Shown: positions 16,013-30,662 of the stretch, in pieces
Layout of the letters: each line of letters starts with the position of its first letter
Position numbering within the stretch: the first letter of the stretch is position 1
NCBI GenBank assembly: GCA_017302655.1
Contig: JAFLDE010000021.1
Span: 1-51,343, forward strand
Reading direction: 5' to 3'
DNA: 51,343 nt
From: Burkholderiales bacterium
GTDB lineage: Bacteria > Pseudomonadota > Gammaproteobacteria > Burkholderiales > Burkholderiaceae_C
Program-made: the position numbers and the translations under genes
Notes under the pieces: model-generated
Database searches by the model: none
Told to the model about the DNA's origin: nothing
What the model saw: the letters and a program-made list of their open reading frames with translations, nothing else

Positions 16013-16219
16013 CTACCCCAGCGCCAACCGGCTCAGGTAGCAATACAGCCCCCAAGCCTCCGGGCGCGTCAACTGCGCCAAGTCCGCAGCAGCACCGAGG
16101 TGAGGGTAGCGATCGAGCAGCGTGATCAGCCGGTACAACCAGTCAATGTCCCTCTCTTCGGGAACAAAGCCAAGCTGCCGGCGCAACGCCTGGCGGTGCA
16201 TTTCATCCGCCCTAGCCAC
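16013..16219 (-). CDS. Small hypothetical protein
   Basis: 68 residues (MARADEMHRQALRRQLGFVP), probably helical, of unknown function. Its start overlaps the end of alpA by 8 bp and its stop is 3 bp before the Rep-like gene. This packing is the main evidence that it is real. Confidence 0.6.
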   Translation of the reverse strand: MARADEMHRQALRRQLGFVPEERDIDWLYRLITLLDRYPHLGAAADLAQLTRPEAWGLYCYLSRLALG

Positions 16220-16478
16220 GGCTCCACCCCGCGTTGTTCAGCGCTTCCCCGCGGGCCGCTTCCAGCCGCTTCACCAGGGCGCGAATCTCCTCTTCGCTCT
16301 TGCCGGCGATCCGCGCGGCATTGATCGCATCCACTTCATCAGACGGCCAAGCCACCGACCGGGCGCCCAGGCTCACCGGGTGCGGCCACAGGCCTTGGGC
16401 GATGCGGAGGTACAGGGTGCTGCGGCTGTAGCCGCAGCGGGCCTTCACGGTCGGAAGCCGGAGGAGGACATTGCGCAT
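16212..16478 (-). CDS. AlpA-family transcriptional regulator/excisionase-like protein
   Basis: 88-residue helix-turn-helix protein with the AlpA pattern: LLRLPTVKARCGYSRSTLYLRI, then GLWPHPVSLGARSVAWPSDEVDAI. In P4-type elements AlpA relatives activate integrase expression or assist excision. The ATG at 16478 (MRNVLLRLP) is preferred over the longer frame from 16538. It heads a tight three-gene operon with a small ORF and the Rep-like protein, about 68 bp after the HTH-containing gene. Confidence 0.88.
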   Translation of the reverse strand: MRNVLLRLPTVKARCGYSRSTLYLRIAQGLWPHPVSLGARSVAWPSDEVDAINAARIAGKSEEEIRALVKRLEAARGEALNNAGWSRG

Positions 16479-16546
16479 GGTTGGACCTCGTTGGTTGAGA
16501 GGCCTCCATTGCGAGGGCGGAACCCCCCTTCCGGGCAACTGCGCCT

Positions 16547-17383
16547 CTAAGCCCTTGATTTCCTTGCGCGGGCGGAACGCTTTTTTTCGTCGAGATGCGC
16601 CTGCGTGCTCAGGTCTTGCAGCTGATCGAAGGGGCCAGCCGGCCTCTTGATCGATGCCCTCGGTGGACTTGCCGTGTCTGCGCGCGATTCCCTGAGCAAT
16701 CTTCTGACCCTGCTGTCGCTGATCCCCTCCTCCTCTGCCAGCGTCCTAGTCGGGTTGGGCACCTTGCCAGCCAGCTCGCGATGGCGCTGCTTCAGCCGAG
16801 CACTTCGCGCCTGCTTGTCCTCCGGCGCGAGCGGCTTGGTGCCTTTCCTTCCCAGGTCTTCGCGCTCGATGACTTCGATCTCGGCCACGCTGAAGAAGCC
16901 CTGCTCAATCGGCGGAAGGCGCCGGTTCATCGGTCCGCTGCCTTCCGTGCCCCCCGTGACCGGGTGCAGGTCCTGCAGCCTCAACTCGGCGATCTTGGCT
17001 TTCACGAACGCCTTGGCATCCAAGCGCGGAACCTCTGCCCACCTCGCAATCAGTGCCGCCCCACTCATGTACCGATCCTTGGGCGTGAATCGCTCCACAT
17101 CTCTCGAAGCGAACCACGCGCCCATCAGCGTGGGCATGTAGTCGAAGCAGGGCTCACCAGCCGCATCAAATCCATCTGGAAAGCGAAGCCGACGTTTGCG
17201 CCCGGGGCGCTCCCAGAACTCATAGGCCTTCAGCCCACCCGCCTCGGGACCCAGCCAGATCCAGATCGCCAGTTCCTCAGGCGTTGCGGACATGCGCCTC
17301 ACAAGAATCTGCATGGCCATCGGATAGGGCACGTAACGGGGAATCCGTTCGCTCTGGGGGGATGAAGGGGTCATGCCTGGCAT
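16547..17383 (-). CDS. Island protein with C-terminal helix-turn-helix
   Basis: Not assigned to a named family. About 278 residues from ATG 17383 (MPGMTPSSPQ; 17374 is an alternative). The N-terminal half is Trp/Pro-rich and globular (IWIWLGPEAGGLKAYEFWER). The C-terminal third has a probable helix-turn-helix, RTLAEEEGISDSRVRRLLRE, and an Arg/Lys-rich end. It is the first gene of the minus-strand operon, facing the defence operon across a 161-bp intergenic region with two inverted repeats, so it is a candidate regulator of both directions. Confidence 0.65.
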   Translation of the reverse strand: MPGMTPSSPQSERIPRYVPYPMAMQILVRRMSATPEELAIWIWLGPEAGGLKAYEFWERPGRKRRLRFPDGFDAAGEPCFDYMPTLMGAWFASRDVERFTPKDRYMSGAALIARWAEVPRLDAKAFVKAKIAELRLQDLHPVTGGTEGSGPMNRRLPPIEQGFFSVAEIEVIEREDLGRKGTKPLAPEDKQARSARLKQRHRELAGKVPNPTRTLAEEEGISDSRVRRLLRESRADTASPPRASIKRPAGPFDQLQDLSTQAHLDEKKRSARARKSRA

Positions 17384-17439
17384 GCCGGTCTCGATTTCAC
17401 GATCACACCCTGATGCTATGTTTTTGGCCCCCCGCCACT

Positions 17440-17470
17440 CTGGGACGTTCGGTCCATCCGTGCGTCCCAG
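17440..17470. promoter_or_regulatory. Inverted repeat, possible operator (8-bp arms)
   Basis: CTGGGACG at 17440-17447 is mirrored perfectly by CGTCCCAG at 17463-17470, with a 15-bp spacer. It lies centrally in the divergent region 17384-17544. It could bind a dimeric regulator or form a hairpin in the 5' leader of the defence operon. Confidence 0.4.
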
Positions 17471-17473
17471 TCC

Positions 17474-17497
17474 ATGCGTCGTCACACGGCAACGCAT
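17474..17497. promoter_or_regulatory. Second inverted repeat, possible operator (6-bp arms)
   Basis: ATGCGT at 17474-17479 and ACGCAT at 17492-17497 form a palindrome with a 12-bp spacer, directly after the first repeat and about 48 bp before the NYN start codon. Paired palindromes suggest two operator sites, but arms this short could occur by chance. Confidence 0.3.
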
Positions 17498-17544
17498 AGA
17501 TCGCACCAATGCCAGCCCCTAGGATTGCAAAGACAGGGAGAAGC

Positions 17545-18366
17545 ATGACCACGAAAACTGCCGCCTCGGCCGAGGCCCGCGTCGCCGTCCTGGTCGACTG
17601 CGACAACACCAGCCCCGAGATCCTTGAGCATGCGCTGCGCGTTGTCGCGCAGTTCGGCCGCGTCGTGCTCCGCCGTGGCTACGGCAACCACGCCACGCTG
17701 GCCAACAAGTGGCAGGAGGCCCTGGTGCGCCAGGCCTTCACGCCCTGCCTGCAGTACACCTACGCCGCGGGCAAGAACACCTCCGACATCGCGCTGGCCC
17801 TGGATGCGCTGGAGGCCTTGTTCGATGACCGTGCGGACACCTTCTGCCTGGTGACCAGTGACTCCGACTTCGCCTACCTGTGCCGAAAACTGCGCGAGCG
17901 GGGCGCCACCGTCCACATCGTGGGCGAGGCCAAGACGCCGGACGCGCTGCGCAACGCGAGCGACCAGTTCTTTGAGTGGGCCAAGCCAGCGCCGCCGGAG
18001 GCGGAAGCGCCTGCCGCCGGCGCCAGCGCAAAGCCGAACGACCCCAGGCCCGAAGCACCGAAGGCCGACCCCGCCAAGCCCACACCCAAGCGGCGCCCGC
18101 TCTTCGTGGTCGAGGCCGTCAACCTGATTGCGGCGAACTCTTCCGACGGCAAGGTGCACATGGGCGCCTTGGGTCAGTATTTGAAGCGGACCGACCCCGC
18201 GTTCTCACCCCAGACCTACGGCCACTCTGGCCTGCTGGACATGGTGCGCACCTACGAGCTGCTCACCCTGCAGCAAGAGGTCGGCGGCAACTGGACCGTG
18301 CGCCTGGCGCCGCCCGCAACACCCGCTGCTGCACCCGCAGCCCCGCATTCCACGAATCCCGACTGA
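17545..18366 (+). CDS. NYN-domain nuclease with OST-HTH/LOTUS domain
   Basis: 273 residues. The N-terminal NYN (PIN-like) domain has Asp residues placed for metal binding: VLVDCDNTSPE at about 16-26, GKNTSDIALALDAL, and VTSDSDFAYL near 107. A linker rich in Ala, Pro and Glu follows, then an OST-HTH/LOTUS-type RNA-binding domain (about 185-260: NSSDGKVHMGALGQYLKRTDP, YGHSGLLDMV). The family is expected to cut or bind RNA. The ATG at 17545 has GGGAG upstream. Its stop is 7 bp before hsdM, so it is the first gene of the restriction operon, which is not a standard position for this family. Confidence 0.9.
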   Translation: MTTKTAASAEARVAVLVDCDNTSPEILEHALRVVAQFGRVVLRRGYGNHATLANKWQEALVRQAFTPCLQYTYAAGKNTSDIALALDALEALFDDRADTFCLVTSDSDFAYLCRKLRERGATVHIVGEAKTPDALRNASDQFFEWAKPAPPEAEAPAAGASAKPNDPRPEAPKADPAKPTPKRRPLFVVEAVNLIAANSSDGKVHMGALGQYLKRTDPAFSPQTYGHSGLLDMVRTYELLTLQQEVGGNWTVRLAPPATPAAAPAAPHSTNPD

Positions 18367-18373
18367 ACTCCCG

Positions 18374-20806
18374 ATGGCGATCAAGAAGTCCGACCTTTAC
18401 TCCTCCCTCTGGGCCAGCTGCGACGAACTGCGCGGCGGCATGGATGCCAGCCAGTACAAGGACTACGTCCTGTTCATGCTGTTCATCAAGTACATCAGCG
18501 ACAAATACGCCGACTCCGACGACTTCGCACCGCCGGTGGTCATCCCGGCTGGCGCCAGCTTCAAGGACATGATTGCGCTCAAGGGCAAGAGCGACATCGG
18601 CGACAAGATCAACACGCAGATCATTCAGCCGCTGATCGACGCCAACGCTCGCCTCGCGCGCAGCGACTTCCCCGACTTCAACGATCCCAACAAGTTGGGC
18701 GAGGGCGATGCCATGGTGCAACGCCTGAGCAACCTGATCGCCATCTTCCAGAAGCCCGAGCTCGACTTCTCGAAGAACCGCGCCGAGCACGACGACATCC
18801 TCGGCGACGCCTACGAGTACCTGATGCGCCACTTCGCCACCGAGAGTGGCAAGAGCAAGGGCCAGTTCTACACGCCCTCCGAAGTCAGCCGCGTCATCGC
18901 CAAGGTCATCGGCATCGCTCCCGGCAACACCTTGGCCAGCACCACTGCCTACGACCCGACCTGCGGCTCGGGCTCGCTGCTGCTGAAGGTGGCTGCTGAG
19001 GCCGGCAAGCACATCACGTTGGAGGGCCAGGAGAAGGACGTGACCACCGCGGGCTTGGCGCGGATGAACATGATCCTGCACGACTTCCCGACGGCCAACA
19101 TCCTCAGCGGCAACACGCTGGCCAACCCGAAGTTCCTGGACGGCCTGCAGCTGCGCACCTACGACTACGTGGTCGCCAACCCACCGTTCTCCGACAAGAC
19201 CTGGAGCACCGGCCTCACCCCGTCGAACGATGCCTTCCAGCGCTTCGCCTGGGGCGAGCCCCCTGCCAAGCAGGGCGACTACGCCTACCTGCTGCACATC
19301 ATTCGCAGCATGAAGGCCAACGGCAAGGCCGCTTGCATCCTGCCGCACGGCGTGCTGTTCCGCGGCAATGCGGAAGGCGTCATCCGTAAGCAGTTGCTCA
19401 CCAGCGGCATCCTGAAAGGGATCATCGGCCTGCCGGCCAACCTCTTCTACGGCACCGGCATCCCCGCCTGCATCCTGGTGCTGGACAAGGAGAACGCCGC
19501 CGGCCGCAAGGGCGTGATGATGGTCGACGCCAGCAAAGGCTTCATCAAGGACGGCAACAAGAACCGCCTTCGCGAGCAGGACATCCACCGCATCGTGGAC
19601 GTCTTCATGCGCCAGGCCGACGTGCCCCGCTACGCCCGCCTGGTGCCGCTGGCCGAGATTGCTGACGCGCGGAACGACTTCAACCTCAACCTGCCGCGCT
19701 ACATCGACAGCAGCGAGCCCGAGGACCTGCACGACATCACCGCCCACCTGCGCGGTGGCATCCCGGCGCGCGACCTGGACCACGCGGACAGCCCGCTGGC
19801 CCCCTACTGGCAGGTGCTGCCCGGTGTGCGCCGCAGCCTGTTCGAACCCACGGGTCACGCGGGCTATGTGCAGCTCACGCTCCCCGTGGCGGAACTGAAG
19901 GCGGCCATCGGCGGCCACGCGGAGTTCCAGGCCTTCAACCAGCAGGCCACGCAGCGCTTTGCCCATTGGCGCACCGCCGCCACCGAGCGCCTGAAGGCGT
20001 TCGAGGCCGGTGGCCACCCCAAGGCGCTGATCGAGACCCTGTCCGAGGACCTGCTCGCGGGCTTCAAGGACGCGCCCCTGATCGATGCCTACGACGTCTA
20101 CCAGCACCTGATGGACTACTGGGCCGCCACGATGCAGGACGACGTCTACCTGATCGCTCTAGAGGGCTGGGCGGCCAAGACCAGCCGCATTCTGGAGACC
20201 GACAAGAAGGGCAAAACCAAGGATCGAGGCTGGACCTGCGAGCTGATCCCCAAGCCCTTCATCGTGGCGCGCTACTTCGCCGAGGAACAGGCCGCCCTCG
20301 ATGCGCTGCAGGCCGAGCTGGACGCGGCCGTGGCCAGCCAGGCCGAGCTTGAGGAAGAGCAAGGCGGCGAGGACGGCATCTTCAATGGCTACGACAGCAT
20401 CACGGCCGTGGCGGTGAAGGAGCGCATCCGCGAGATTGGCAAGGACGCCGATGGTGCCGAGGAGTTGAAGCTGCTGAAGACCTGGCTGGAGCTGAGTAGC
20501 CTGACCGCCGCGCTGAAGAAACAGATTCGCGATGGCGACGCGGCCTTGGACGCGCTGGCCCACGACAAGTACCCGGTGCTCACCCTGGCCGAGATCCAAT
20601 CGCTAGTGATCGACGACAAGTGGATGGAGACGCTTGCCGGCACCGTTCAGGGCGAACTCGACCGTGTTTCACAGACGCTGACTGGCCGAATTCGGGACCT
20701 TGCAGAGCGCTATGCGAAGCCGCTGCCGACACTCACCACGGAGGTAGCCGTGCTAGCCGCTCAAGTGGACGCCCACCTCTCAAAAATGGGGGCGGTATGG
20801 CCGTAA
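18374..20806 (+). CDS. hsdM: Type I restriction-modification methyltransferase subunit
   Basis: N6-adenine methyltransferase subunit of a type I system, 810 residues. It has the N-terminal HsdM helical domain (MAIKKSDLYSSLWASCDELR), SAM-binding motif I DPTCGSG at 194-200, and catalytic motif IV NPPF at 269-272. A long C-terminal extension includes a coiled-coil segment near 640-670. With HsdS it methylates the recognition site; with HsdR it also forms the nuclease. It is translationally coupled to hsdS, whose start overlaps its end by 10 bp. Confidence 0.96.
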   Translation: MAIKKSDLYSSLWASCDELRGGMDASQYKDYVLFMLFIKYISDKYADSDDFAPPVVIPAGASFKDMIALKGKSDIGDKINTQIIQPLIDANARLARSDFPDFNDPNKLGEGDAMVQRLSNLIAIFQKPELDFSKNRAEHDDILGDAYEYLMRHFATESGKSKGQFYTPSEVSRVIAKVIGIAPGNTLASTTAYDPTCGSGSLLLKVAAEAGKHITLEGQEKDVTTAGLARMNMILHDFPTANILSGNTLANPKFLDGLQLRTYDYVVANPPFSDKTWSTGLTPSNDAFQRFAWGEPPAKQGDYAYLLHIIRSMKANGKAACILPHGVLFRGNAEGVIRKQLLTSGILKGIIGLPANLFYGTGIPACILVLDKENAAGRKGVMMVDASKGFIKDGNKNRLREQDIHRIVDVFMRQADVPRYARLVPLAEIADARNDFNLNLPRYIDSSEPEDLHDITAHLRGGIPARDLDHADSPLAPYWQVLPGVRRSLFEPTGHAGYVQLTLPVAELKAAIGGHAEFQAFNQQATQRFAHWRTAATERLKAFEAGGHPKALIETLSEDLLAGFKDAPLIDAYDVYQHLMDYWAATMQDDVYLIALEGWAAKTSRILETDKKGKTKDRGWTCELIPKPFIVARYFAEEQAALDALQAELDAAVASQAELEEEQGGEDGIFNGYDSITAVAVKERIREIGKDADGAEELKLLKTWLELSSLTAALKKQIRDGDAALDALAHDKYPVLTLAEIQSLVIDDKWMETLAGTVQGELDRVSQTLTGRIRDLAERYAKPLPTLTTEVAVLAAQVDAHLSKMGAVWP

Positions 20807-21972
20807 GAGCTGAGGAGATGAAGAGAGGCGCAGCCAGCCCGCCGGAGTGGCGCAACTGCGATATCTCTGATTTGTGCCAGCTACAGAGAGGCTTTGATTT
20901 GACCGAGGCGACTCGTAAACCGGGCTCCGTCCCGGTGTACTCGTCGTCTGGACTCGCGTACTTTCATAGCGAGGCAAAACTGCAGCCCCCAGCCGTGATC
21001 ACTGGCCGTAAAGGGTTGCTGGGCACTGTCTACTTCGTCGAAGAGCCGTGCTGGCCCCATGACACAACACTGTGGGTTAAGGACTTCAAAGGTAACGACC
21101 CACGCTTTGTTCAGATTTTCTTGAATGAGTTTGGCCTTGAGCGCTTTGACGCTGCAACCTCAGTGCCTACGCTCAACCGAAACAATGTGTTCGGTGTACC
21201 GATCCATTTGCCCCCTGTATCCGAGCAGCGACTCATCGCGGCTGCGATTGGCGATGTCGAAGCACTTCTGACCGGCCTCGATCGCCTCATCGCCAAGAAG
21301 CGCGACCTCAAGCAGGCCGCCATGCAGCAACTCCTCACCGGCCAGACCCGGCTTCCGGGGTTTCAGGGGGTGTGGGCAATGAGGCCGCTGAAGGCCGTCG
21401 CGGAGATCAGCGCCGGAATCAATAAGCCGATCAGCGAGATGGGAGCCGGCGCTCTCTACGTCACTGTTCAAGACCTCTATGACGGGACCTCGATTCGCAC
21501 TGATCGATTGAGCCGAATCAAGGTGTCGCCAGCGGAAGTCGAAGCTAAGGGCCTTGTCGCGGGTGACATCGTCTTTGGAAAATCCTCAGTCAAACGGGAA
21601 GGGATTGGTTACCCCAGCATCTTTCTTGGCAGCGCAGAGCCCACTGTTTTCTCCGGTTTCACCTATCGCGCACGCGCACGCAATGGCACTGCCGATGCGA
21701 AATATCTCTTCTTCGCGCTACGAGCTGAAGGGACGCGCCGCTGGCTGATCGACAACTCTCAGGCTTCCGCGCTAACGAACATCAATCAAAAGATCGCTGA
21801 CGCCATACCGATTCAGATGCCGCCAACTCTTGGGGAGCAAACCGCGATTGCCACCGTCCTTTCCGACATGGAGGCCAACCTCGTCGCTCTTGAAGCTCGC
21901 CGCGACAAGACCCGCGCACTCAAGCAAGGAATGATGCAAGAGCTTCTGACCGGAAGGACTCGCCTGGTATGA
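20797..21972 (+). CDS. hsdS: Type I restriction-modification specificity subunit
   Basis: 391 residues with the classic two-half layout: target-recognition domain, conserved helix, second target-recognition domain, second helix. The helices are seen as [20 protein letters not shown] and [20 protein letters not shown], each ending in QLLTGQTRL or ELLTGRTRL. The recognition domains look lower in GC than hsdM and hsdR, as is usual for these variable parts. The start at 20797 (GGGGGCGGT upstream) overlaps hsdM; an ATG at 20818 is possible. The DNA target cannot be predicted from sequence alone. Confidence 0.93.
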
Positions 21973-24900
21973 CGCCGCCCCTCCGCCCCGAACGGGTGAC
22001 CCAGAGCCGCGTCATCAAGCGCCTGACGAACCCCACCGCCGCTGGCGGCTTGGGCTACGCCAACCTCGGGGACTGGAGCAAACGCGAGGGCAACCGCTGC
22101 ATCGAACTGGAGCTGCTTCGCGCCAACCTGAAGCAGCGCGGCTACTCCGACGCTCACATCTCGCAGGCCCTGCAGAAGCTGATGGCGGCGGCGGATGTCA
22201 CCGGCATCACGCTTTACCAGGCAAATCTGCGCACCTACCAGCTGCTGCGCTACGGTGTGCCGGTGCAGGTGGCGGCGGGCGCGCCGCACGAGACGGTGCA
22301 CCTGATCGACTGGGCGACGCCGGCCAACAACCAGTTCGCGCTGGCGGAGGAGGTGACGCTGAAGGGCGGCGATGACGGTGGCCATGTGCGCCGGCCCGAC
22401 CTCGTGCTCTTCATCAACGGCCTGGCCGTGGTGGTGATTGAGCTCAAGCGCAGCTCGGTGGACGTGGCGAACGGCATCCGTCAGCTGATCAGCAACCAGG
22501 AAGGCATCTTCAACCAGGGCTTCTTCAGCACCGTGCAGCTGGTGCTGGCGGGCAGCGACTCGCAAGGCCTGCGCTACGGCACCACGGGCACGCCGGAGAA
22601 GTTCTTCGTCGAGTGGAAGCACCACCTGAAGACGGGCGAAGGCTCCCCGCCCGCGGAAGGCGAGCTGCTGGATGCGCCCCTGAGCCAGATCCTGGAGCCC
22701 ACCCGGCTGCTGGACCTGATCCGCAACTTCGTGATCTTCGACGCCGGGCAGAAGAAGGTGCCTCGCCTGCATCAGTACGAAGGGGTAAAGGCTGCGCAGG
22801 AGCGCATCCGCAAGCGCGAGGGGGGCGTCATCTGGCACACCCAGGGCAGTGGCAAGAGCATCCTGATGGTGCTGATTGCCAAGTGGCTGCTGGAGCACGA
22901 CCCCGAGGCGCGCATCCTGGTGGTGACCGACCGCGACGAGCTGGACAAGCAGATCGAAGGCGTGATGAAGAACGCCGGGGTGATCGGGGCGGAGGCGCCG
23001 TCGCCGCGCATCCAGTCGCGCCGGGAGTTGGTGGAGAAGCTGGGCGCTGCCTCACCCCGCCTGATGTGCGCGCTGATCCACAAGATCGACGTGGCCGACC
23101 TGAAGGGCGAGCCGCCAAGGATTGCCGGCCGCTTCTTTGTGTTCGTGGACGAATGCCACCGCACCCAGGGTGGCGACATGAACAAGCAGATGAAGCGCTG
23201 GTTGGCCAGCGCCATCTTCATCGGCTTCACCGGCACGCCGCTGCTGCGCCGCGACAAGCAGACCACGGCCGAGGTCTTCGGCACCTTCATCCACACCTAC
23301 AAGTTTGACCAGGCGGTGGCCGACAAGGTGGTGCTGGACCTGAAGTACCAGGCGCGCGATGTGCCGCAGCGCCTGACCTCGCGCCAAGCCATCGACGACT
23401 GGTTCGAGAAGAAGACGCAGGGGCTGAACAACTTCCAGAAGTCGGTGCTGCGCAAGCGCTGGGCCACGATGGAAGAGCTGATGAGCGCGGGCGAGCGCAA
23501 GCAGCGAATCATTGCCGACATCGTTCACGACTTCGGCGTGAAGCCGCGCCTGAATAACGACCGCGGCACGGCCATCCTGGTGGCGGCCTCGATCTACGAC
23601 GCCTGCCACTACTTCCGCCTGTTCCAGAACACGGGCTTTGGCGCCTACTGCGGGCTGATCACCTCGTACGAACCGAACCACAACGCGATCTCGCAGGAGC
23701 CATCGAACAGCGACGAGCGCTACAAGTTCGACACGTACACGAAGCACGTGCTGGCGCCTGGTCAGACCACCGTGCAGTACGAGACCGAGATGAAGCGCCG
23801 CTTCATCGAGGAGCCGGCTAACCTGAAGCTGCTGATCGTGGTGAGCAAGCTGCTGACGGGCTTTGACGCGCCGAGCTGCACCTACATCTACCTGGACAAC
23901 GAGCTGCGCGACCACAACTTGTTCCAGGCCATCTGCCGCACCAACCGCCTGGACGGTGACGACAAGGACTACGGGCACATCGTTGACTACAAGGAGCTGT
24001 TCAGCAAGGTGCAGGACGCGATTGCTGTCTACACCTCCGACGAGCTGGACATCGAGGCTTGCGGCGACGACGCCAATGTGGTGGTCAAGGATTGGCTGGA
24101 GGAAGGCAAGGCCAGGCTGGATGGAGCGCGCGAGGCACTGATCTACCTGTGCGCGCCGGTCAAGCAGCCGCAGGGGATTGAGCAGCACATCCACTACTTC
24201 TGCGGCGATGCCGCCAACCCCGCGGCGCTGAACGACACCGAGCCGATGCGGATCGCCTTCTACAAGGCCGTGGCGGCCTATGTGCGCGCCTACTCAGACC
24301 TGGTGGCGCATCTGCAGGAGGCGGGCTACAGCGCCGCGCAGATCGGTGCCTTTGAGAAGGAGACGGACTTCTATGCCGAGGTGCGGGCGGCGATCAAGAA
24401 CCACTCGGGCGAAGAGCTGGACATCAAGCCCTTCGAGGCGGACATGCGCCACCTCATCAACACCTACATCCAGGCCGATCCGGCGAACCTGCTGGGGGAC
24501 TTGAGTTCGCTGTCGCTGACCGAACTGATCATCGAGACCGGCATCCACGACGCGATTGCGAAGAAGCTCAACGAGAAGGGCAAGCTGTCGCGCGACGCGA
24601 TCGCTGAGGGGATCATCAACAACGTCCGCAAGACCATCGTTCGCGAGCAGCTGACCGACCCCAAGTTCTACGAGGAGATGTCGAAGCTGCTGGAGGACCT
24701 GATCGCGCAGAAGCGCGACGAGACCGACGACTACGAGCAGTTCTTGAAGAACGCCGAGGCGCTGGTGAAGAAGCTGGCCCAGGTCAAGGGCGAGAACGAG
24801 GTGCCGGCCGAGTTGCATGGCAACAAGGAGGCGACCGTGCTCTACAACAACCTGCCGGCCATCTTGGCGGCATCAGCGCCACCGGACATGGTTTCCGAGC

Positions 24901-25100
24901 CCGTGGCCGAGTACGGCGACCAGTGCCTAGTCCTCGCCTTGAAGCTGGACAAGGCGATGCGCGAAAAGGCACCTGCCAATTGGAAGGGCGACCAGGCAAA
25001 GGAGGCCCATGTTCTGAATGCGATCTTTCCCATCATGGGCAAGAACAAGGCCGCCACACTGGCGGTCTTCGAGATCGTCAAGCACCAGCCGGGTTACTGA
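21969..25100 (+). CDS. hsdR: Type I restriction endonuclease/translocase subunit
   Basis: 1043-residue restriction subunit. The PD-(D/E)xK nuclease site is visible as RRPD (Asp about 144) and VIELK (Glu158, Lys160). The SF2 helicase core has Walker A TQGSGKS at 291-297, DECH at 394-397 and GFTGTPLL. The C-terminal helical region contacts HsdM. The start overlaps the hsdS stop as ATGA. No frameshift or missing catalytic residue is seen, so the system looks functional. Confidence 0.96.
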
Positions 25101-25798
25101 TGGGTGAAGTGATCGAGCTGGGCGCGGTGAGGATTCAGCTCACCCGCAAGCGCGTCAAGCATGTGCACTTGACCGTGCACCCGCCCGACGGCCGGGTGAC
25201 GCTGGTAGCACCGCCGAACACGCGACCCGAGGTGGCGCGCGCATACGCGATCTCGAAGCTCGGGTGGATCAAGCAGCAGCAGACAGCGCTGCGTAGCCAG
25301 GCCCGGGAATCGCCGCGCCGCTACGTCACGCGGGAGAGCCATCAGCTCTGGGGGCGGCGTCATTTGCTGACGGTCATCGAGGCGGATGCGAAGCCCTACG
25401 TGAAGCTCGACCACCGACGCATCAAGCTGGCGGTGCGGCCGGGAAGCGACGCCACCAAACGCGCCGAGGTGATGCACGAGTGGCACAAGCAGCTGCTGCA
25501 CGCCGAGATCCCAGCCCTGATCGCCCGCTGGGAGAAGAAGCTGCGCGTGAAGGTGTCGGGCTACTTCCTGCAGCGCATGAAGACCAAGTGGGGCAGCTGC
25601 AACCACCGCGCCGGGAACATTCGGCTGAACACCGAGCTGGTGAAGAAGCCGAAGGACCTGGTCGAGTACGTGGTGGTGCACGAGATGCTGCACCTGCTAG
25701 AGCCGACGCACAACGAGCGCTTTGTGGCGCTGCTGGATCGCTGGTGGCCTCAGTGGCGGGAGGCGCGGCGGGAGTTGAACGCGCTGCCGCTGAGTTAG
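25100..25798 (+). CDS. YgjP/DUF45 (WLM-like, SprT-related) metallopeptidase
   Basis: 232 residues. The zinc motif HEMLH is at 194-198, with the third ligand probably the His in PTHNERF, and the family signature KWGSC is at 163-167. Its ATG shares a base with the hsdR stop, so translation is coupled. DUF45 genes are often found beside type I restriction systems, but their role is not established; regulated proteolysis of a complex subunit is one idea. No signal peptide is seen. Confidence 0.92.
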   Translation: MGEVIELGAVRIQLTRKRVKHVHLTVHPPDGRVTLVAPPNTRPEVARAYAISKLGWIKQQQTALRSQARESPRRYVTRESHQLWGRRHLLTVIEADAKPYVKLDHRRIKLAVRPGSDATKRAEVMHEWHKQLLHAEIPALIARWEKKLRVKVSGYFLQRMKTKWGSCNHRAGNIRLNTELVKKPKDLVEYVVVHEMLHLLEPTHNERFVALLDRWWPQWREARRELNALPLS

Positions 25799-25869
25799 CC
25801 CGACCTCGGCCCGAGACCTACGTTCCGTTGATCTGCATGGACACTCCACTACCTACAAAGGGGGGAAAG

Positions 25870-27543
25870 ATGGCCGTACCACTAGAGGCGACCAAGATCG
25901 AACCATCGCAAAGATCGGATCGGCTACCAGCAACCAAGAAAGTGGACGCAACGGGCGAGGCAGTTGGCAGCCTCACGCCCGAGTTAGTCATCGCTCTTTG
26001 CGGCCCGATCGGCTCGCCGCTACACGAAACAGCCACGCAGATCGAGAACACGCTCAGGGAGTTCGGCTACAAGTCAGTGACGATTCGCCTGAGCAACTTG
26101 ATTCGGCTGAATGCAAAGAAGGTGAACGAGCAGCTGGACACGAGTACCAAGTTCGCAGAAATCACATCGCTGATCAAAATCGGTGACCGACTCCGATCGG
26201 ACTATGGCAGCGATGTATTGGCCAAGCTGGCCATCGCAAAGATCAGCGCCGATCGTCAAAGCCAGTTCGGCGCTTTCGAGGATGTGGCCGACGAGGCAAG
26301 CAAACAGCCGAAGGAGCAAATCAAGAGCCAACGGATCTGTCATGTGATCGACTCTGTGAAGAACACCGCTGAGCTCGACCTGCTGCGACTGATCTACGGC
26401 GATGCACTCTTTGCCGTCGGGGTGTTTTCGCCGATGGAGCTCCGGCAAACCAACCTTGAACGCCCCGGACAGCTGTCGCATGGAGAGATCGGCAAGTTGA
26501 TCGACACAGACTCTGGGGAAGAGTTCTCGCATGGGCAGTCTGTACGGTCCACGTTCCCGAGGTGTGACTTCTTTCTGCGCGTTGATCACTCCGTTGTTGG
26601 CCCATCGGAGGCAAGGGCAATTGCTCAGATCAACGAGCGCATCAGACGCTTCTTTGACTTGGTTTTCCGAACGGCGGTGGTAACCCCGACTGCGGACGAG
26701 ACCGCGATGTACGCCGCGACTTCCGCTTCGAGGAACTCTGCTTGCCTCTCACGTCAAGTCGGGGCAGCGGTGACAAGCGCCTCTGGCGAGCTGTTGGCGG
26801 TGGGCTGGAATGATGTGCCGCAGGCCGGCGGTGGCCTGTACGGCATGCGTTCACTGGCGACACCCGCCAACGATGGAAGGGTGGTTGAGGACAGGCGCTG
26901 TTTTGCCGAGGCCGGTCGCGTGTGCCGCAACGACGAAGAGAAGAGGGCAATCGCGCAGAAGGTCGTCGAGAGCTTGATCAAAGGCTCATTCCTCAAGGAA
27001 GAACAGAAGCAGGGGGCTGCTGACGCGATCCTTGGTGACTCTCGAGTTAAGGACCTCATCGAGTTTTCTCGCGCAGTACACGCCGAGATGCATGCCATCC
27101 TTGGGGCGAGTCGTGTCGCCGGCGATAGGGTGATCGGCGGCAAGATATTCGTGACGACGTACCCCTGCCACTCCTGCGCAAGGCACCTTGTCGCCGCTGG
27201 CATCGCCGAGATTCAGTACATAGAGCCGTATCGAAAGAGCCTCGCGACCCGGCTCCATGCGGATGCGTTGACTGAGTCGACCGATGCGCAGGGAAAGGTC
27301 CAGGTTCGGCAATACGACGGGATCGCTCCTCGCCGCTTCATTGACATGTTCGAAGGCGGTATTCGAAAGAAGAGCGGGGTGCTAGCATTGACAGGTCGTT
27401 TAGAGGCCCCCCCTCTGACGCAAGTCAGCCTCAAGGCAATTCCGCGGCTCGAACAGGTTGTGGTCGCGGAGGTCGCGACGAAGAACCTGGAAGTTCTCGG
27501 CCTTTCGACAGAAAAAGGTCCCGATGGCAAAGCTACCGCATAG
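25870..27543 (+). CDS. Antiphage dCTP/cytidine deaminase (DCD/AvcD-like)
   Basis: 557 residues from ATG 25870, chosen for the strong GGGGGGA ribosome site; an ATG at 25837 is possible. The N-terminal half is P-loop-NTPase-like with a degenerate loop, ALCGPIGSP, near 43-50. The C-terminal half is a zinc cytidine deaminase with VHAEMH at 403-408 and PCHSCARHL at 432-440. This layout matches phage-defence deaminases (DCD, AvcD) that drain dCTP/dCMP during infection. It is 71 bp after the DUF45 gene. No room for a long upstream AvcI-type RNA exists in that gap. Confidence 0.92.
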   Translation: MAVPLEATKIEPSQRSDRLPATKKVDATGEAVGSLTPELVIALCGPIGSPLHETATQIENTLREFGYKSVTIRLSNLIRLNAKKVNEQLDTSTKFAEITSLIKIGDRLRSDYGSDVLAKLAIAKISADRQSQFGAFEDVADEASKQPKEQIKSQRICHVIDSVKNTAELDLLRLIYGDALFAVGVFSPMELRQTNLERPGQLSHGEIGKLIDTDSGEEFSHGQSVRSTFPRCDFFLRVDHSVVGPSEARAIAQINERIRRFFDLVFRTAVVTPTADETAMYAATSASRNSACLSRQVGAAVTSASGELLAVGWNDVPQAGGGLYGMRSLATPANDGRVVEDRRCFAEAGRVCRNDEEKRAIAQKVVESLIKGSFLKEEQKQGAADAILGDSRVKDLIEFSRAVHAEMHAILGASRVAGDRVIGGKIFVTTYPCHSCARHLVAAGIAEIQYIEPYRKSLATRLHADALTESTDAQGKVQVRQYDGIAPRRFIDMFEGGIRKKSGVLALTGRLEAPPLTQVSLKAIPRLEQVVVAEVATKNLEVLGLSTEKGPDGKATA

Positions 27544-27742
27544 CACCCCCAACCAGCTCGAGTTGCGACTCTTGGTTGATCTCAAAGGACGGGCGGCGGA
27601 GGTTCAGGGGGGCGACTCCCAGGCAAGCTCATCGCCGACAGATCCACTACAAGAGCAAGTTGCGTCTGAGAGCGATCGCTCCGTGTACCGGATGATTGCG
27701 AACGATTACTTCAGCAGCCTGCGGAACGCTGAGATCACCTGA
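27524..27742 (+). CDS. Small hypothetical protein overlapping the deaminase gene
   Basis: 72 residues (MAKLPHSTPNQLELRLLVDL), unknown family. AAAAAGG sits 5-11 bases before the ATG, and the frame overlaps the deaminase end by 20 bp. The N-terminus looks helical, the middle is rich in Ser, Gln and Glu, and the end has a Tyr/Phe-containing helix (VYRMIANDYFSSL). It could be an accessory or regulatory partner of the deaminase. Size and lack of family make it uncertain. Confidence 0.5.
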   Translation: MAKLPHSTPNQLELRLLVDLKGRAAEVQGGDSQASSSPTDPLQEQVASESDRSVYRMIANDYFSSLRNAEIT

Positions 27743-27876
27743 CCTGCACTCGCTGCGCTTCTGCAAAGACGCTGTAAACGCCGCACAGCTAGCTCAAGGT
27801 GAGCCTACAGCAACTCGACGAAACTTGGACGAGCATTGCTTGCTTCAGCAACTGGCGCAGTGGAAAGGCTCAGCCG

Positions 27877-29091
27877 TCATGATGCGATCGCCTTGAATCG
27901 ACCCAGCACGATCCGTCCACCAGCGTGCAACTGGTCGATGTAGTCGGCCCAGAACTGCAGCATCTCCCGCCGCTGCGGTTCGTACTCGGCGCGGTTGTAG
28001 ACGCCACGAACGCCGCCGATGGTGTGGTTCAGGGCCTTCTCCACCACGTCCGAGGCCCAGCCGTTCTCGTGCAACAGCGTAGAAGCCGTACGGCGCAGGT
28101 CGTGGATGGTGAAGGCCGGAATGTCCTGCCCTTGAAGCGACTTCTTCAGCGCGTTGTTGATGGCGTTGTGCGCGAAGGGTTTGGTGAGGCTGCCACGCCC
28201 GGGCAACACCAGCGTGCTGCCGCCAGCCAGCGCTTGCAGCTCCAGAAACAGCCCCACGGCCTGGCGGGAGAGAAACACGATGTGGGGCTTGCCGGTCTTC
28301 GAGTTCTCGGCAGGGACGTGCCACTCGGCTTGCTCCAGGTCCACATGCTCCCAACGGGCCAGCAGCAGTTCGGACTTGCGGACCATCGTCAACAGAATCA
28401 GGTGCAGGCCGATCTTGAATTGGCGGCGAATGTTGGACTCGAAAGCTGCCACCAAGAAGGTTCGAATCTCGTCGGGTGACAGCGACCTGTCGCGGGACTT
28501 GGCCTTGTGGACATGGCGCATGGGCAGCGCCAGTACCGGGTTCATGTTCACCAACCCGGCCGTCATGGCGAAGTCGAACAGTCGCTTTAGCACGCCCCGG
28601 ATGTTGCCCGCCGCGGCATCGAAGCCTTCGTCCTTCTTCTTCCAGATGATGGCTCGTACGTCCTCGGTGGTCACGTCGCGAATGGGTTTGCTGCCGATGG
28701 CCGGCACGATCGCCTTGTCGAAGTAGCGGCGCGGGATGGTGATGTCCTTCCGGTCCTTGGCCACGATTTCGCGGAAGAAGCGCTCGCCGAAAGCGGCTAC
28801 GGTGGTGGCGTCGGCTGCTGCCTGCTTGGCAAGCTGCTTCTGACGGGCGGGCGACTTGTCCATCGCCGCCGCCTGGGCGGCCTCGTCGCGCTTGACACGA
28901 GCGTTCTTTAGCGTGAGCGCCGGGTACTTGCCCAAGGTCAGCTTCTCTCGCTTGCCGGCCACCCGGTAGCGGAAGCGCCAAACGATGCCGCCGGTCGGGA
29001 ACACCTCCACGTACAGCCCGCGCTCATCGGCAACGGTGTAGGGCTTGTCGTTGGGCTTGAGCGCCTTTAGCGCGGTGTCGGTCAGGGCCAT
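27877..29091 (-). CDS. int: P4-type tyrosine integrase
   Basis: 404 residues. It has an N-terminal DUF4102 arm-binding domain (ADERGLYVEVFPTGG, WRFRYRVAGKR), a SAM-like core-binding domain, and a catalytic domain with Arg238 (MVRKSELLLARW), Lys in SKTGKPH, HDLRR (His330, Arg333), LNHT (His356) and Tyr365 (VYNRAEY). All catalytic residues are present. The start codon faces the right attachment site in mnmE about 185 bp away, the usual arrangement for this family. It would catalyse integration and excision of the island. Confidence 0.95.
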   Translation of the reverse strand: MALTDTALKALKPNDKPYTVADERGLYVEVFPTGGIVWRFRYRVAGKREKLTLGKYPALTLKNARVKRDEAAQAAAMDKSPARQKQLAKQAAADATTVAAFGERFFREIVAKDRKDITIPRRYFDKAIVPAIGSKPIRDVTTEDVRAIIWKKKDEGFDAAAGNIRGVLKRLFDFAMTAGLVNMNPVLALPMRHVHKAKSRDRSLSPDEIRTFLVAAFESNIRRQFKIGLHLILLTMVRKSELLLARWEHVDLEQAEWHVPAENSKTGKPHIVFLSRQAVGLFLELQALAGGSTLVLPGRGSLTKPFAHNAINNALKKSLQGQDIPAFTIHDLRRTASTLLHENGWASDVVEKALNHTIGGVRGVYNRAEYEPQRREMLQFWADYIDQLHAGGRIVLGRFKAIAS

Positions 29092-29276: not shown

Positions 29277-29294
29277 TTATTTTCCGATGCAAAA
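29277..29294 (-). repeat. Right attachment site within the mnmE 3' end
   Basis: Reads TTTTGCATCGGAAAATAA on the minus strand and forms the last codons (FCIGK-stop) of mnmE. Its AT-rich codons are unlike the rest of the gene, consistent with element-derived sequence supplied by attP. It matches the left copy at 14 of 18 positions. Confidence 0.8.
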
Positions 29295-30662
29295 CCGGCT
29301 GAAGATCTCGCCCAGCAGGTCGTCGGCGCTGAACTGGCCGGTGATGGCACCGAGCTGGTCGTGCGCCAGGCGCAGCTCCTCGGCCACCAGGTCGAGCGGG
29401 GGCTGGCGCAGGGACACCTGCTCCAGCGCCAAGACCAGGTGCTCGGCCGTGCCGGCCAGCGCGCGCACATGGCGCTCGCGGGCGATGAAGAGGCCCTCGG
29501 GCAGCGCCTGCCAACCCACGCGGCGCAGCAGCTCGGCGCGCAGCCGCTGCAATCCCTCGCCGGTCTGCGCGCTGAAGGCCAGGGCGCCTTCGGGCGCGGC
29601 CTGCGCACAGGCGGCGTCGGCCTTGTTGTAGGCGTGCAGCAGGTGGCGCTCCAGGTTGCCGTCGTGGGCGGCCAGCTGCTCGCGGATGCGCGCGTCCTCG
29701 CGCTGGTAGTCGGCGTCCTGCAGGCGCGTCAGGTCGTGCAGGAAGAGCACCACGTCGGCGTCGGCGATGGCCGCCCAGCTGCGCTGCACGCCGATGCGTT
29801 CCACCATGTCCTCGGTGTCGCGCAGGCCGGCGGTGTCGGTAATGTGCAGGGGCACGCCGTCGATCTGGATGTGGCTTGCCAATGCGTCGCGGGTGGTGCC
29901 GGCTATGGGCGTGACGATGGCCAGCTCGGCGCCGGCCAGCGCGTTCAGGAGGGCGCTCTTGCCCACGTTGGGCTGACCGGCCAGCACCACCTTCAGGCCC
30001 TCGCGCAGCAGCGCGCCCTGGCGGGTGCGCGCCAGGATGGCCTGCACGCGCTCGAGCAGACCTTTCAGCTGGCCCTGCACGTCGGCCTGCTGCACGAACT
30101 CGACGTCCTCCTCCTCGGGAAAGTCCAGCGTGGCCTCGACGAACAGGCGCAGCTGGATGAGGGCGTCGCGCAGCTCGTTCACTTCGCGGGACAACGCGCC
30201 GTCCAACGCCCGCGCGGCGCTGCGCGCGGCGGTCTCGGTGCTGGCGTCGATGAGGTCGGCGACGGCCTCGGCCTGCGCGAGGTCCAGCTTGCCGTTCAGG
30301 AAGGCGCGCTGCGTGAACTCGCCGGGCTCGGCCAGGCGCGCGGCTGGCAGCAGCTGCAGCACGCGGGCCAGCAGCAGCTGCAGGATGACCGCCCCGCCAT
30401 GCGCCTGCAGCTCCAGCACATGCTCGCCGGTGTAGCTGTGCGGAGCAGGGAAGTGCAGGGCCAGGCCGTGGTCGATGGGGCTGCCATCTTCGGCCTTGAA
30501 CGGTCCGTAGTGGGCGTGGCGCGGCTTCAGTTTCGCGGCGGTGAGGGCCTCGGCCAGTTCCAGCAGTGGTTGCGGGGAGGACACGCGGACGATGCCCACG
30601 GCGCCGCGGCCGGGGGCGGTGGCGATGGCGGCGATGGGCGCGCTTCTGGTGGCGAGGTTCAT
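29277..30662 (-). CDS. mnmE: tRNA uridine-5-carboxymethylaminomethyl modification GTPase
   Basis: 461-residue MnmE/TrmE. It has an N-terminal tetrahydrofolate-binding domain ([20 protein letters not shown]), a helical domain, an embedded G domain with [20 protein letters not shown] and NKAD, and the invariant C-terminal FCIGK containing the functional Cys. With MnmG it modifies wobble uridine of some tRNAs. The ATG is at 30662. The island inserted at its 3' end keeps the protein sequence intact. Confidence 0.97.

Follow-up and report, generated by a model that had tools for sequence, protein, structure and literature searches.

A run of seven open reading frames (ORFs) occupies positions 17,545 to 27,742 of a contig from a Burkholderiales bacterium (JAFLDE010000021.1, assembly GCA_017302655.1), the window being the whole stretch of 51,343 nucleotides that was analyzed. 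The first five genes (17545–25798) look like a type I restriction operon of the RptR-RMS-DarTG-M48 (RRDM) family with a NYN-LOTUS gene in the lead, and the last two (25870–27742) look like a module of their own, composed of an AvcD-type anti-phage dCTP deaminase and a 72-residue ORF (P0007). An earlier note, made from the letters of the sequence, had placed all seven ORFs on the plus strand with gaps of 7, −10, −4, −1, 71, and −20 bp, and the ORF coordinates agree with it. Its family calls were upheld by profile scans, with the gene that it named DUF45 being YgjP-like (Table 1). The catalytic signatures NPPF, PD..ELK, GSGKS, DECH, HEMLH, HAE, PCHSC, DCDN, and SDSD were found in the window enzymes.

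Table 1. Coordinates of the two gene groups and of the flanking features (positions in the window)
Feature	Position	Strand	Basis
NYN-LOTUS (LK-nuclease + OST-HTH), leads restriction operon	17545..18366	+	Pfam NYN, OST-HTH; invariant residues; structure match
HsdM, type I N6-adenine methyltransferase	18374..20806	+	N6_Mtase + HsdM_N
HsdS specificity subunit, two target-recognition regions	20797..21972	+	Methylase_S in two stretches
HsdR restriction/translocase subunit	21969..25100	+	HSDR_N + SWI2_SNF2; TIGR00348 above cut-off
YgjP-like/M48-type zinc metallopeptidase, closes the putative restriction module	25100..25798	+	YgjP-like 2.1e-55; HEMLH
Gap between the putative modules, 71 bp, composition step	25799..25869	+	No W-ending upstream ORF of the AvcI-locus kind
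AvcD-type anti-phage dCTP deaminase, putative second module	25870..27543	+	NF041025; PADLOC dCTPase
72-residue AvcD companion ORF (P0007)	27524..27742	+	Conserved place downstream of AvcD
QLELRL, codons 11–16 of the small ORF, putative sliding-clamp (DnaN) binding motif	27554..27571	+	Motif pattern
Tyrosine-recombinase-type integrase of the island	27877..29091	−	ORF beside the mnmE 3′ end; named by sequence alone
mnmE (trmE), chromosomal, 3′ end borders the island	29277..30662	−	Named by sequence alone
Left-hand island genes, divergent from NYN	16212..17293	−	ORF list
AlpA-like regulator	16212-16478	−	By eye
Gene with no assigned family name, left of NYN	16547-17293	−	ORF list

The NYN-LOTUS gene and the restriction genes behind it

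The lead protein matches Pfam NYN at residues 12–144 (1e-31) and OST-HTH/LOTUS at residues 191–250 (1.2e-9), and D18, D20, N21, D81, D106, and D108 are invariant across 30 aligned rows. Its structural model, with a mean predicted local distance difference test score (pLDDT) of 83, has a PIN-like fold that matches the NYN domain of MARF1 as well as VPA0982. Because of this fold match and the invariant acidic residues, the protein is likely a nuclease. Downstream of it, HsdM, HsdS with two recognition regions, and HsdR with its nuclease and motor motifs are all intact. Type I enzymes protect host DNA through the marks set by HsdM2S and use HsdR to cut phage DNA that lacks them. The trailing M48/YgjP peptidase gene overlaps hsdR by 1 bp, and ygjP follows hsdR with the same 1-bp overlap in three other loci (L031, L034, and L039; L numbers label the loci compared).

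Assignment to the RRDM family draws on an Escherichia coli chromosome that was picked up through DNA similarity of hsdM and carries the order HTH-M-S-darT-darG-R-M48 (HTH, helix-turn-helix). Identity between the window and this island is 52% for HsdM (827 alignment columns), 43% for HsdR, and 37% for the peptidase, whose counterpart there is an M48 peptidase in the equivalent position. The published seven-ORF RRDM layout, in which the lead gene encodes the repressor RptR (PMC12255303), matches that chromosome. Between S and R, where the window has nothing, NYN-led relatives encode various products: Schlafen-AlbA_2 (L031), the nuclease YhcG/DUF1016 (L034), or AAA and McrC (L036). The lead slot varies too, being taken in L112 by a gene for a Fic protein, 17 bp upstream, and in L123 by one for a ribbon-helix-helix protein. 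AAA and McrC genes were seen behind hsdM in three NYN-led type I operons, L036 (scanned) and L078 and L107 (by clustering).

The association between NYN-LOTUS and type I genes, on which the earlier note had built, is recurrent and not obligatory. A search of one genome per species found 96 NYN relatives, of which the best 80 (65–83% identity) were kept; in 17 of these 80 loci NYN is followed directly by a type I gene on the same strand, at a distance of −41 to 51 bp. Our own gene caller located NYN in 72 of these loci, and the eight that it missed (L065, L072, L090, L095, L100, L101, L106, and L109) gave no hsdM match by tblastn. NYN precedes type I genes of three architectures: the window-type hsdM in seven loci (L031–L035, L039, and L052), a second hsdM type in eight (L036, L048, L061, L078, L079, L104, L105, and L107), and hsdR first in two (L037 and L040). 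The hsdM is only a fragment in L032, L033, L035, L048, and L107, and L052 stops at a contig end. No hsdM or hsdS cluster member lies upstream of NYN in the 17 linked loci. On a quick NYN tree of 94 rows with many open forks, the linked state changes at least nine times, and type I linkage was therefore gained or lost several times. The window's own NYN clade comprises seven rows with the window-type hsdM and one without, in at least four surroundings (the window, L031, L034, and L035/L039).

Type I genes are not adjacent to NYN in the remaining 63 of the 80 loci, a few of which, such as L047, L049, and L076, have a contig end within 0.7 kb. In a fixed set of 300 genomes from the same taxonomic order as the window, none of the 20 other genomes with this hsdM (E up to 1e-150) carries NYN within 1.5 kb upstream, and none of the six other NYN-subfamily genomes of the set is among those 20. 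These counts favor an account in which NYN-LOTUS, with a housekeeping or accessory role, stands by itself and restriction operons insert behind it, owing to a shared promoter or an insertion hot spot, and so does the stand-alone NYN that faces gyrB-dnaN-dnaA, in convergent orientation, in L038, L043, L044, and L046 (gene names by eye). The window copy, however, lies on an integrative element, its clade spans the several surroundings listed above, and the type I operons that NYN precedes are of three kinds, which leaves this account somewhat unlikely.

The anticodon nucleases PrrC and RloC consist of ABC-ATPase and anticodon nuclease domains, a makeup that the window protein does not share: the scan found NYN and OST-HTH domains only and no ABC-ATPase domain. 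A PrrC-like second line of defense would nonetheless be conceivable, with an RNA nuclease that is silenced by the restriction complex, freed by phage anti-restriction, and able to halt translation. The RNase-type fold, the invariant acidic residues, and the recurrent adjacency to three kinds of type I genes agree with such a role, as does the silencing of PrrC by its linked type I enzyme (PMC2610378). Given also that the nuclease activity is a prediction and that most NYN loci have no type I neighbor, the PrrC-like account is unlikely. Under the RRDM-family reading preferred here, NYN-LOTUS sits in the slot of RptR and would most likely be an RNA-level controller or an RNA-cleaving backup tied to expression of the operon, and the YgjP/M48 peptidase, as the recurring trailing gene, would perhaps serve in turnover of the restriction subunits.

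Other neighbors of NYN were observed among its relatives. In Xanthomonas, genes for a helicase and an Mrr-type nuclease precede NYN at a distance of 12 bp. In G049, a SNF2 helicase and an Eco57I/MmeI-type methylase lie about 1.6 kb downstream of NYN, a set that we take to be DISARM-like. A Polaromonas plasmid carries an N6-methylase gene divergent from NYN, and in Pseudomonas a RadC-like (JAB) protein, recognized by eye, is convergent with NYN (L045:3382-3894; the next gene in L063) and starts with QLSLAF or QLSFSF. A position beside gyrB was considered as a shared site of the restriction-linked NYN loci and rejected: among 14 genomes, the two share a contig only in L038, which has gyrB proper and NYN on one contig and shows no restriction genes; the assemblies probed are drafts, in which adjacency across contig ends is possible.

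AvcD and its small companion

The window AvcD scores 451 bits against the equivalog NF041025 for anti-phage dCTP deaminases (cut-off 400) and 536 bits (2.9e-161) against the PADLOC dCTPase profile. The zinc site, HAE plus PCxxC, is present, and H404, A405, E406, P432, C433, and C436 are invariant in 10 rows. AvcD drains dCTP and dCMP in phage infection. Proteins matching the window AvcD are rare: four samples that overlap one another contain them in 3 of 300 genomes, 7 of 398, 3 of 321, and 2 of 120, at E limits of 1e-60, 1e-60, 1e-50, and 1e-50 (the first three counts include the window's genome). A viral scan with the window AvcD as the sole query gave no match, and other AvcD queries against plasmids and phages found nothing further. 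Fifty other AvcD loci were compared, several of them near-duplicates, with flanks of up to 7 kb that shrink to almost nothing at viral contig ends.

P0007 has no family in Pfam, NCBIfam, PADLOC, or PHROGs. It goes beyond chance in that relatives carry a small ORF at the same place behind avcD, and both this place and a short motif are conserved. The motif, QLELRL at residues 11–16, lies past the avcD stop codon and is therefore not a by-product of the overlap. The coding signal of the ORF between Pantoea and E. coli is weak (four codon differences, three of them synonymous). Its model predicts a disordered N-terminus and a helix at residues 49–71 (mean pLDDT 69), which would place a peptide of the Q-L-x-L-F or Q-L-x-L-x-L/F type in a disordered stretch. 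An N-terminal QLxLxL/F hexapeptide is a clamp motif, as in Hda, and the host's Hda-like protein (best match TIGR03420, below cut-off) starts MSARQFPLDL, an N-terminal motif of similar form (QFPLDL). A review gives the bacterial clamp motif as QL(S/D)LF, with the remark that wide variation may be tolerated, and puts it at the C-terminus (PMC9690074).

Downstream ORFs of at least 35 codons, starting between −70 and +160 bp from the avcD stop, were collected for 50 AvcD genes including that of the window and screened for a clamp-type pattern (Q[LM]x[LF]x[FLVIY] or Q[LM][SDE][LFM]F). The motif is present in 17 of the 70 ORFs, against a mean of 1.08 expected from 500 residue shuffles. Among the 19 loci that were first inspected in this survey (L173, L174, and L179–L195), it occurs in three, L173 and L174 inside the window's AvcD clade and L180 outside it. 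Neighbor proteins served as background: 58 of 1076 contain the motif anywhere, three within their first 30 residues, and an N-terminal motif is found in 0 of the 152 that are no longer than 110 residues. The companion motif proteins have 52–94 residues.

A quick tree of 46 AvcDs, from which the near-copies or fragments L164, L165, L167, and L193 were omitted, groups these enzymes by companion gene, with 9 changes of companion type versus 26.8 in shuffles. All 13 rows of the window's clade (SH-like approximate likelihood ratio test 87, not starred) have a motif ORF downstream, and the motif at the start of the ORF reads Q and then L or M in every aligned row. In a clade of five, four members have a downstream ORF of 172–202 residues, two of which contain QLSLF or QLSFNL, and seven members of a clade of eight share a third type of small downstream ORF. 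The other 20 rows include 10 with an upstream ORF that ends in W, and L180 with a QLDLDF downstream ORF.

AvcID pairs a dCTP/dCMP deaminase with the labile RNA antitoxin AvcI, described as a noncoding RNA, whose loss upon inhibition of host transcription is the switch (PMC10511110). The ORF that marks AvcI-type loci lies upstream of avcD, and none of the 11 loci with such a W-ending ORF has the downstream motif; L143, with a motif and a W-ending upstream ORF, was judged a chance case. Before the window avcD, only 71 bp are free and no AvcI-type or W-ending ORF was seen there, RNA not having been looked for; nor was such an ORF seen in the rest of its clade, where the upstream side is readable in 12 of the 13 rows. 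That side is unreadable, at a contig start, in L157, L179, L180, L181, L183, and L189.

SocB inhibits replication through a clamp-binding motif (PMC9690074), and the small ORF could by analogy be a separate DnaN-blocking toxin and not a regulator of AvcD. The motif ORF goes with one AvcD clade, however, and the small companions of the other clades mostly have no such motif, so that a SocB-like toxin is very unlikely. As a regulator, the small protein would stand where the AvcI RNA stands in classical AvcID. It may bind AvcD through its C-terminal helix and DnaN through QLELRL, hold or tune AvcD according to the state of the replication fork, and release the deaminase when a phage takes over replication; the direction of this control is, like the two contacts, a conjecture. 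The broader proposal, for which we would give slightly less than even odds, is that AvcD clades each have their own small cognate gene, that the window's clade swapped AvcI for a clamp-binding protein such that fork state replaced transcription shut-off as the switch, and that a subfamily of NYN-LOTUS RNases recurrently leads type I operons.

Several features of the companion genes were noted beside these results. The 11 AvcI-type loci, which include two near-identical pairs (L140, L141, L144, L145, L148, L149, L154, L163, L164, L182, and L194), have an upstream ORF of about 55–80 codons with an AxKxxW-like end. AvcDs of an alphaproteobacterial type (L142:5586-6104, L143:5614-6153, L150, and L151) overlap the 172–202-residue downstream ORF, which holds QLSLF in L142 and QLSFNL in L143 and has no Pfam match in these two; the flanks of the same two loci, on alphaproteobacterial plasmids, carry multiubiquitin-domain and ThiF-family genes. 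The third type of small ORF (L152, L153, L155, L156, L185, L191, and L195) has no clamp-type motif and by eye is LxxQ...A...W-like. Also by eye, VVxF, a charged stretch, and a C-terminal helix are common to the small proteins behind avcD and the ORFs in front of it at AvcI loci, and the ORF at L180:1822-2025 displays traits of both companion types, beginning with QLDLDF and ending with ARKLSW. A single family for the two kinds of ORF was tried and rejected, as 600 shuffled decoys scored equally high in reciprocal hidden Markov model searches.

One system or two modules

The earlier note had read the seven genes as a joint defense system. The relation to defense stands, and the joint operon is unsupported by linkage, which was tested in both directions, or by composition. 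Starting from the deaminase, neither hsdR nor YgjP nor NYN was matched in the 50 other AvcD loci, and hsdM only once and distantly, in L195; linkage of the deaminase to hsdMSR in relatives was thus not borne out, nor was a conserved pairing of DUF45 with the deaminase, the YgjP count of 0 in 50 being one from often short flanks. Of the two genes whose linkage to hsdMSR the note had made its refuting condition, the deaminase fails and NYN passes in part. A peptidase gene as close as that of the window would show in every AvcD locus that has any upstream sequence. Starting from NYN, none of the 80 loci has an AvcD match, the end of the operon being visible only in L031, L034, and L039 (1.1–1.4 kb beyond ygjP). 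At the 71-bp gap, the GC content of third codon positions (GC3) steps from 0.87–0.91 in NYN, M, R, and YgjP to 0.69 in AvcD and 0.67 in the small ORF.

A single composite system, in which the deaminase would act together with NYN, restriction, and the peptidase, would fit the common strand, the short gaps, and a 71-bp junction with no promoter-like site and no plus-strand terminator-like site. The missing linkage in both sets of loci and the GC3 step argue against it, and we regard it as highly improbable. The reading that we prefer, with a probability of about 0.55, is that two independent anti-phage modules lie side by side, an RRDM-family restriction module with a NYN-LOTUS lead and an AvcD with its small protein; the best explanation as a whole would have both carried by an integrative element that borders mnmE at its 3′ end. 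Neither a second copy of this mnmE 3′ end, which would mark the attachment site, nor the left border of the island was found within the window.

A number of observations weigh against this reading or its parts. The GC3 of hsdS is also low (0.65), and composition alone therefore cannot define the modules. The 71-bp gap may still permit co-transcription, and a simple scan of 17300–28000 gave no promoter-like site, a result that fits neither one unit nor two modules. On the NYN side, besides the 63 unlinked loci and the 20 hsdM genomes without NYN upstream, same-strand genes lie 46 bp (L037) and 100 bp (L079) before NYN, which therefore need not open the transcript. As for the small ORF, the motif pattern was written after the motif had been seen in about a dozen loci, so that the enrichment is descriptive and not blind; whole-ORF identity of the relatives to the window ORF is only 12–32%; the proposed clamp binding draws on a short motif; the structural model is of low confidence; and hhalign put the match of these small proteins to the ORFs upstream of avcD at AvcI loci at a probability of 8.6%, in line with the failed single-family test.

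Comparison with known systems

Judged by sequence, the restriction module represents a known type of island in a variant form, headed by an unusual gene that recurs in this position, and the deaminase module is a subtype of a known deaminase defense with a companion protein for which no description was found in the literature searched. That search, outside which most subscription papers lie, returned no report of NYN-LOTUS leading type I operons and none of a protein companion of AvcD; we do not claim that either is "not in print".

The window and the E. coli island of RRDM layout have in common the M-S-R order, the trailing M48 peptidase, and a small lead gene. They differ in that the window leads with NYN-LOTUS and the E. 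coli island with the RptR repressor, that the window has no DarTG between S and R, where hsdS and hsdR overlap by 4 bp, and that AvcD and the small ORF are added behind the window's peptidase. The EcoprrI-PrrC pair likewise has an RNA nuclease (a predicted one in the window) encoded with a type I system, but the putative window nuclease is of another type and is encoded upstream of hsdM. The domain architecture of NYN-LOTUS is that of bacterial LK-nuclease/NYN plus OST-HTH proteins and of MARF1/Limkain b1. In a 2010 survey (PMC2848206), bacterial NYN plus OST-HTH genes had no conserved-neighborhood links to other known RNA-processing systems and were thought possibly standalone, whereas one NYN subfamily here repeatedly precedes type I restriction operons. 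This recurrent gene neighborhood would provide a first handle on the role of the family.

The window AvcD belongs to the same equivalog family as the deaminase of AvcID. Unlike AvcID, it has a small protein encoded downstream, and its upstream side, examined for ORFs only, has none like those at AvcI loci. If the proposed control is true, replication would be a second trigger for AvcD, beside the loss of a labile RNA when transcription stops. With SocAB and Hda, the small protein shares a short motif of the Q-x-x-L-x-L/F type, which is N-terminal in Hda; the difference is that the putative window motif sits on a 52–94-residue companion of a deaminase. The DnaN-binding motif given in PMC9690074 is C-terminal, whereas the putative one of the window is N-terminal.

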